A stretch of 38,527 nt of DNA. Origin: Nocardiopsis trehalosi NBRC 14201. Its GTDB lineage: Bacteria > Actinomycetota > Actinomycetes > Streptosporangiales > Streptosporangiaceae. The DNA lies in the NCBI RefSeq assembly GCF_001552555.1, contig NZ_BCRK01000039.1, forward strand, positions 1 through 38,527. Direction: 5' to 3'. The notes under the pieces are model-generated. The model had not been told where the DNA came from and made no database searches. It was given only the letters and a program-made list of their open reading frames with translations. This document shows, one piece after another, positions 29,270-30,599 of this stretch. Numbering within the stretch: position 1 is the stretch's first letter; every line of letters begins with the position of its first letter. Position numbers and translations under genes: made by a program.

Positions 29270-30430
29270 TCAGGGCACCGGGTGGTCGGGGGTGTCGAGC
29301 CAGGTGTGGCGGCCGGTGGGGGTGATGGTGACGCCGAACCGCTCCCGGTCCGGGCGGCGGTTCCGCAGCCACCAGGCGTAGGCGGCCTCGACCTCGTCGA
29401 ACAGGCGGCGGTCGCCGTGCTGCTCGACCGCCGCCCCCTCGGCGCCGGGGACGTGGTCGACCGACGCCCACGCGCCGCTGCCGTCGTAGAGCCACAGGGT
29501 GAACTCGCCCGAACCGTCGGCGGCGTGGAAGTCGACCTGCGCCAGGCCGGGGACGAGGACGCCCACGGCGAACCGGGCGGGGGAGTCCATCCGCAGCAGG
29601 TCGCGCGGGTCGACGCCGGTCACCGAACGCCGCACCGGGGCGGAGGTGTCGACGTAGGAGCGCCATCCGCCGGTGGGTCCGCGCTGGCTCCGCAGCCACA
29701 TGAACCCCGCGCGGGAGAGGACGGGGCCCTGGGCGGTCCCGTCCACCCCCACCTCCAGGCGGAGCAGGCCGGTGCTGGCGTACGGCGTGCCCCAGGGCAG
29801 CAGCACCACCCCGCCCGGCCGGGTCTGCCGCACCCACGCGTAGGGGACCGCCCCCGCGGCGGCCGTGGCGATCACGCGGTCGAACGGGGCGTGGGCGGCC
29901 GCCCCCTGGGCGCCGTCGCCGGTGAGCACCGGAACGGGCAGGCCCGCGTCGGCCAGCCGGCGCCGCGCGTGGCGGGCGAGCCCCGGGTCGACCTCGACCG
30001 ATACCACGTTCTCCGCGCCCAGGCGCGCGGCCAGCAGCGCCGCGTTGTAGCCGGTACCGGTCCCCACTTCGAGGACCCGCGTGCCCTCGCGCGGGTCGAG
30101 CGCGCGCAGCATGCCCAGGACGAGGGACGGCTGGGAGGCGGAACTCGTCACGTACCGCCCGCGCCCGTCCGCGCCCTTCGGTGCGCCGTCGTCCACCTGG
30201 GTCGCCACCGCCACGTCGGAGTAGACGGCCTCCGCCCAGTAGGGGTCGCCGCGCCCGACCGGCCGCAGCCACGCCGGGTCGTCGGCGTCGGGCGTCCAGA
30301 TGACGTCCGGGACGAATCGGCCGCGGTCGACCGCCGCGAACGCGGCCGCCCAGTCCGCGCCGAGCACCCCGCGCGCACGGAGCAGCCCGGCCAACCGGGC
30401 CGGGCCGCTCTCCGGGCGGGGTGGGGTCAC
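29270..30430 (-). CDS. RiPP-associated PIMT-like O-methyltransferase
   Basis: A 386-residue SAM methyltransferase homologous to protein-L-isoaspartate O-methyltransferase but with a long C-terminal extension. The PIMT substrate loop appears as TSSASQPSLVLGML (about 95-108), motif I as VLEVGTGTGYN (119-129), then VVSVEVDP, APFDRVIATAAA and RPGGVVLLPWGT. The C-terminal 150 residues end RFGVTITPTGRHTWLDTPDH, the type of C-terminal block I recall from PIMT homologues in lanthipeptide, lasso, graspetide and imiditide clusters, which methylate an Asp that then closes to an aspartimide. The GTG start at 30428-30430 overlaps the stop of the 44-codon peptide gene (GTGA), implying coupled translation. 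Confidence 0.85.
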   Translation of the reverse strand: MTPPRPESGPARLAGLLRARGVLGADWAAAFAAVDRGRFVPDVIWTPDADDPAWLRPVGRGDPYWAEAVYSDVAVATQVDDGAPKGADGRGRYVTSSASQPSLVLGMLRALDPREGTRVLEVGTGTGYNAALLAARLGAENVVSVEVDPGLARHARRRLADAGLPVPVLTGDGAQGAAAHAPFDRVIATAAAGAVPYAWVRQTRPGGVVLLPWGTPYASTGLLRLEVGVDGTAQGPVLSRAGFMWLRSQRGPTGGWRSYVDTSAPVRRSVTGVDPRDLLRMDSPARFAVGVLVPGLAQVDFHAADGSGEFTLWLYDGSGAWASVDHVPGAEGAAVEQHGDRRLFDEVEAAYAWWLRNRRPDRERFGVTITPTGRHTWLDTPDHPVP

Positions 30431-30561
30431 GTGCCGTCCGGTGCGTCGGGCCCGGTCTTCTCGCCCCCGCCGCCGTGGCCGGCGCCGGACTGGCCGTCCC
30501 ACTCCGAGGGCGTGCCCTTGCCCTGGTCCTCGCCCTTGTCCTGGTCCCCGTGGCGCCCCAT
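30427..30561 (-). CDS. 44-residue candidate imiditide-type RiPP precursor
   Basis: A short gene directly before the methyltransferase: ATG at 30559-30561, GGGAGG 5 nt upstream, TGA at 30427-30429 overlapping the methyltransferase GTG. The peptide is hydrophilic, with no Cys and few hydrophobic residues. It starts MGRHGDQDKGEDQGKG and contains a single Trp in the block TPSEWDGQSGAGHGG. Asp-Gly pairs, the preferred context for aspartimide formation, occur at Asp22-Gly23 (next to Trp21) and Asp42-Gly43. Precursor plus PIMT homologue alone is the defining minimal architecture of imiditides. Codon use is that of a real gene. The assignment as substrate is inference from overlap and family. Confidence 0.7.
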   Translation of the reverse strand: MGRHGDQDKGEDQGKGTPSEWDGQSGAGHGGGGEKTGPDAPDGT

Positions 30562-30599
30562 GGGCCCCTCCCGTCCACTCGTCCGACGATGGCGGCCCG

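Follow-up and report, generated by a model that had tools for sequence, protein, structure and literature searches.

A peptide gene and its partner methyltransferase in Nocardiopsis trehalosi form a conserved pair predicted to be a type I pamtide (imiditide) unit

The window analyzed here, a stretch of 38,527 nucleotides from Nocardiopsis trehalosi NBRC 14201, contains a methyltransferase gene of the PIMT type and, directly upstream of it, an open reading frame for only 44 residues. The locus raises the question of whether the small frame is a gene, whether it forms a unit with the methyltransferase and, if so, which residue of the peptide is modified. A first-pass annotation had proposed that the two have the architecture of imiditides, a peptide class described in 2023; to our knowledge, type I imiditides have two characterized members and no function is known for the class. 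By published definition, imiditides, or type I pamtides, comprise a precursor of approximately 45 amino acids rich in Gly, Pro and Asp and a peptide L-aspartyl O-methyltransferase (PAMT) with a C-terminal domain, with no other class-defining enzyme (PMC10787088, PMC13001092), and the architecture found here agrees with that definition.

The precursor peptide gene was located at positions 30427 to 30561 of the minus strand, with an ATG start, a TGA stop and a 44-amino-acid translation (MGRHGDQDKGEDQGKGTPSEWDGQSGAGHGGGGEKTGPDAPDGT). A ribosome-binding-site-like sequence, GGGAGGGG, lies just 5' of the ATG (30565 to 30572, minus strand). The end of the frame and the GTG start of the methyltransferase gene share four nucleotides, GTGA (30427 to 30430, minus strand), and the same 4-nt overlap was found in the nearest orthologue, L012, which suggests translational coupling of the peptide and the methyltransferase. 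The gene, its ribosome site and the overlap were thus as the first-pass annotation had them. Its claim that the gene has its own promoter was not borne out, since a scan for the sigma-70 consensus found no promoter and only about 125 nt separate the peptide frame from a GntR gene that precedes it in the same direction; a terminator consensus scan found none either. The peptide is rich in Gly and Asp, with two Pro and no Cys, and in length and composition it resembles type I precursors as published (PMC10787088).

A profile from which the window peptide had been left out gave the 44-mer 55.6 bits, compared to 12.7 bits for the best of 10,000 residue shuffles. The pN/pS ratio of the frame was 0.40 to 0.50 relative to the three nearest orthologues, indicating constraint at the codon level. 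When the 299 genomes of the family were searched with a profile of 24 precursors, 54 places were found at E <= 1e-3, and in 50 of these the next gene downstream is a methyltransferase of this PAMT family. The four without an adjoining methyltransferase are L208, L215, L220 and L223; the C-terminal end of an enzyme survives as a remnant at L215, and at L223 there is a frame that resembles the enzyme N-terminus and then breaks off. The peptide almost never occurs apart from the enzyme. Conversely, most of the 72 methyltransferase loci in the same bacterial family are preceded by a related peptide gene of 26 to 47 amino acids; among the others, the peptide is degenerate at L033, L038, L065 and L067. 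Many homologous enzymes of named actinomycetes, for the most part Streptomyces and Actinomadura, likewise have similar Gly/Pro/Asp-rich small frames in front of them. The conservation upstream of orthologous methyltransferases, on which the first-pass annotation had staked its reading, was therefore found. These findings (the profile score against shuffles, the codon-level constraint and the conservation beside the enzyme across genera) show that the small frame is a genuine gene and not a chance one, and that peptide and methyltransferase are a real, conserved two-gene unit.

Several loci were seen in states of decay. At L033, L038 and L067 the precursor remnants beside the methyltransferases keep N- or C-terminal ends and the central Asp-Gly part is gone. 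At L017 (G007:C1:48321-48434) a precursor homologue is cut by an in-frame TAG after MGHRKEGEPD, and the adjoining methyltransferase is intact. L223 and G007:C41:15706-16994 carry near-identical precursor copies approximately 2 kb apart in one genome, with the enzyme broken and intact, respectively, a pattern that suggests local duplication and decay.

The similarity matrices of precursors and enzymes were closely correlated over 58 pairs (Mantel r = 0.86, a value inflated by shared descent; none of 5000 permutations reached it, the maximum being 0.16). Cleaner evidence of co-evolution is given by the host genome, which holds three pairs, one in the window and one each on contigs C30 and C31: each host peptide and its enzyme best match the same foreign pair lineage, a different one for each pair, and not their own paralogue. 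The other two pairs are also of imiditide type; the C30 pair lies at G000:C30:34888-36179 (L010, L202) and the C31 pair at approximately G000:C31 8600-9812 (L011); their precursors are MAGKHGDPDKPTDANPGSDRDGQRPGAGHGSGEPMPEQGGDGTRPGQ and MGKHDDPSRWDGQKDAPPPPPTPDDGGSGGGRHERDDEG, respectively.

The methyltransferase (29270 to 30430, minus strand; 386 aa, GTG start) was assigned as a PIMT-type PAMT from its matches to PF01135 (PCMT, 101 bits) and TIGR04188 and from an AlphaFold2 model. The model, for which an alignment of 24 sequences was the input, is confident (pLDDT 92). Among solved structures, the Thermotoga maritima PIMT 1dl5 came closest (Z 26.5, rmsd 6.5 Å, 309 residues aligned, 22% identity), and this alignment covers model residues 9 to 383, the extra C-terminal domain included; the high rmsd points to a different arrangement of the domains in the modeled enzyme than in 1dl5. 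The C-terminal domain of the RiPP type (29273 to 29647, minus strand; approximately residues 262-386), which the first-pass annotation had recognized, was confirmed by the alignment of homologues, the AlphaFold2 model and the 1dl5 alignment. In the alignment of 24 methyltransferase homologues, the SAM-binding motif EVGTGTG (residues 121-127; 30050 to 30070, minus strand) has E121, G123, T124 and G127 invariant. Near the C-terminus of PAMTs a WXXXGXP motif has been described (PMC13001092), and its counterpart here is W354-LRNRR-P360 (29351 to 29371, minus strand), in which the Gly is replaced by Arg; W354 is invariant and P360 at least 90% conserved, and near relatives also vary at the motif Gly. 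The PF01135 match and the PIMT fold would also fit a housekeeping protein-repair PIMT lying beside a spurious frame, but the conservation of the small frame largely refutes this explanation, and together with the C-terminal extension and the several lineage-specific copies per genome, unlike a repair enzyme, it makes the explanation extremely improbable.

The Pfam scan of 20 open reading frames in the window identified inositol-type catabolic genes, a GntR regulator, a ROK protein, a radical-SAM aminomutase-like protein and housekeeping genes. Among these 20 frames there was no lanthipeptide (LanB/LanC), lasso or ATP-grasp enzyme, and no protease or ABC transporter, as the first-pass annotation had also observed. 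The best NCBIfam model of the methyltransferase is TIGR04188, the methyltransferase of ATP-grasp peptide maturases, which matches it nearly end to end (residues 13-375) and which could mean that the enzyme tailors a graspetide and that the small frame beside it is incidental. This reading was rejected because the score of 311 bits falls below the curated cut-off of 380, no ATP-grasp enzyme is encoded by the scanned window frames and TIGR04187, the graspetide ATP-grasp family, was not found in the host genome; since the small frame is in addition conserved, constrained and co-varying with the enzyme, we regard the reading as largely refuted and very improbable. In the surroundings of the three nearest orthologues, nothing besides the pair matches the window within approximately 9 kb. 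With no neighbor common to the three, the pair has no linked protease or transporter, and by its gene content it behaves as a self-contained cassette. Elsewhere, a frame resembling that of a cysimiditide (type II pamtide), MGKHGGVDRSMCGGTGTVTVNHDGRQETRPCSGCRGTGKV, was observed beside another PAMT homologue (L232; G000:C74, 2595-2717), with one of the four expected cysteines apparently missing.

The first-pass annotation had pointed to two Asp-Gly sites, and both are present in the 44-mer, at Asp22 and Asp42. Asp22 with Gly23, and also Asp12, were each at least 90% conserved among 24 relatives. Asp42 was not, and it was rejected as the modified site because the three nearest orthologues have no Asp-Gly there. 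The Asp22 codon (30496 to 30498, minus strand), in the context W-D-G-Q, is the predicted site of methylation and aspartimide formation. When all 54 places were read, every one of the 48 intact pairs had Asp at the position of Asp22, compared to a loss in three of six damaged loci (Fisher p = 8e-4, on small numbers). The replacing residue was Asn in L208, which has no enzyme, Gly in L215, which has the enzyme remnant, and Asn in L022/L230, where the peptide frame has no start codon; these three loci belong to three different genera. L208 itself (G107, approximately 2078-2194) is an orphan precursor very like that of the window, with EWNGRSG at the predicted site and no methyltransferase nearby. 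The retention of this Asp in intact pairs and its loss in damaged loci support Asp22 as the functional site, and on these comparisons it is most likely the modified residue. That the residue has been lost in nature from loci with a broken partner gene provides independent evolutionary evidence for the enzyme acting there.

Because Asp12 (codon 30526 to 30528, minus strand) is highly conserved too, conservation does not by itself single out one residue, which leaves room for a different assignment, in which the peptide is the substrate, Asp12 or several Asp are modified and Asp22-Gly is needed for recognition. Some sites other than Asp-Gly have been published; NmaA, for example, is modified at Asp-His (PMC13001092). 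Against this assignment, it is the residue at position 22 that damaged loci lose, and the L208 orphan still has Asp at the Asp12 position (GEDQG) while position 22 is Asn. Moreover, Gly is found at position 23 in nearly all relatives and is favorable for succinimide formation, whereas the residue after Asp12 varies freely. This assignment is accordingly unlikely, and Asp12 may serve as an additional site or contribute to recognition.

Taken together, the two genes very probably constitute a type I pamtide (imiditide) biosynthetic unit, in which the modification is predicted from homology. In the proposed mechanism, the 4-nt overlap would couple translation so that the 44-aa precursor is made together with its dedicated methyltransferase. 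The enzyme would then use SAM to methylate one Asp side chain, most likely that of Asp22, as homology and site conservation suggest. The methyl ester would lose methanol and close on its own to an aspartimide, and hydrolysis of this would yield isoaspartate or aspartate, by homology to SpaM and NmaM, for which the sequence of Asp methylation, aspartimide and isoAsp/Asp is established chemistry (PMC10787088, PMC13001092). With no cyclase, protease or transporter associated, the modified linear peptide may itself be the product.

The same gene content could also be read to mean that the peptide works inside the cell as a small protein, for instance in regulation or as a stress factor, and that the methyltransferase switches it between Asp and isoAsp states outside any pathway for a secreted product. 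This would fit with a neighborhood that has no transporter or protease and in which only the pair is common to the three nearest orthologues within approximately 9 kb, with a peptide that has no obvious leader/core cleavage site and with the occurrence of several pairs per genome. However, published imiditides are also usually without a linked exporter, and nothing positive points to an intracellular role, so that this remains a minority possibility beside the imiditide unit. Because about 1,414 type I clusters have been published (PMC13001092), the predicted imiditide unit adds a new member to a known class, or at most a sub-lineage within it, and is not a new kind of system. The first-pass annotation, which named NmaA/NmaM as founding example, was essentially right about the class, which by that count is known from many more clusters than this one example.

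Compared to known systems, the Thermotoga maritima PIMT likewise has a C-terminal domain, but at 22% identity it is a protein-repair enzyme that is not linked to a precursor. The group 13 graspetides with a PAMT (fuscimiditide, SsfA/SsfM) have a homologous methyltransferase (TIGR04188); in contrast to them, the window and, by TIGR04187, the genome have no ATP-grasp enzyme, and the window precursor is not a graspetide precursor. The type II pamtides or cysimiditides (FcaA-FcaM) likewise pair a precursor with a PAMT as primary enzyme and have an Asp-Gly site, but the window precursor has neither cysteines nor their two CXXCXGXG zinc motifs. The closest resemblance is to the type I pamtides SpaA-SpaM of Streptomyces sparsogenes and NmaA-NmaM of Nonomuraea maritima, which likewise consist of two genes in an actinomycete host with no cyclase, a linear Gly/Asp-rich precursor of approximately 45 aa with at least one conserved Asp and a PAMT with a C-terminal domain. 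The window pair differs from them in that its Asp lies in WDGQ followed by an invariant HG, and in that its enzyme has WXXXRXP (WLRNRRP) where type I pamtide enzymes have WXXXGXP. It also differs in charge: the published precursors are positive, whereas the window precursor is acidic, with few prolines and a net charge of -5, and the values for most relatives here lie between -7 and +2. A review describes imiditides as strongly positive and attributes their recognition to a negatively charged loop in the enzyme (PMC13001092), although a strongly positive precursor is a reported trend for known members and does not define the class. No correlation was found between precursor charge and that of the enzyme C-terminal domain (rho -0.10, p 0.47); a correlation with enzyme residues 1-95 (rho -0.46, p 3e-4) is uncorrected and ignores relatedness, and no claim is made from it. 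A further reading, less likely than not, is that the pair belongs to an acidic-precursor imiditide sub-lineage (WDGQxGPxHGGGGEKTG), in which the substrate would be recognized otherwise than by the negative loop and positive peptide of NmaM and the unprocessed peptide would act as such. With two genes, one predicted site and acidic precursors in this sub-lineage, the pair offers a compact case in which the generality of the electrostatic recognition rule can be tested.
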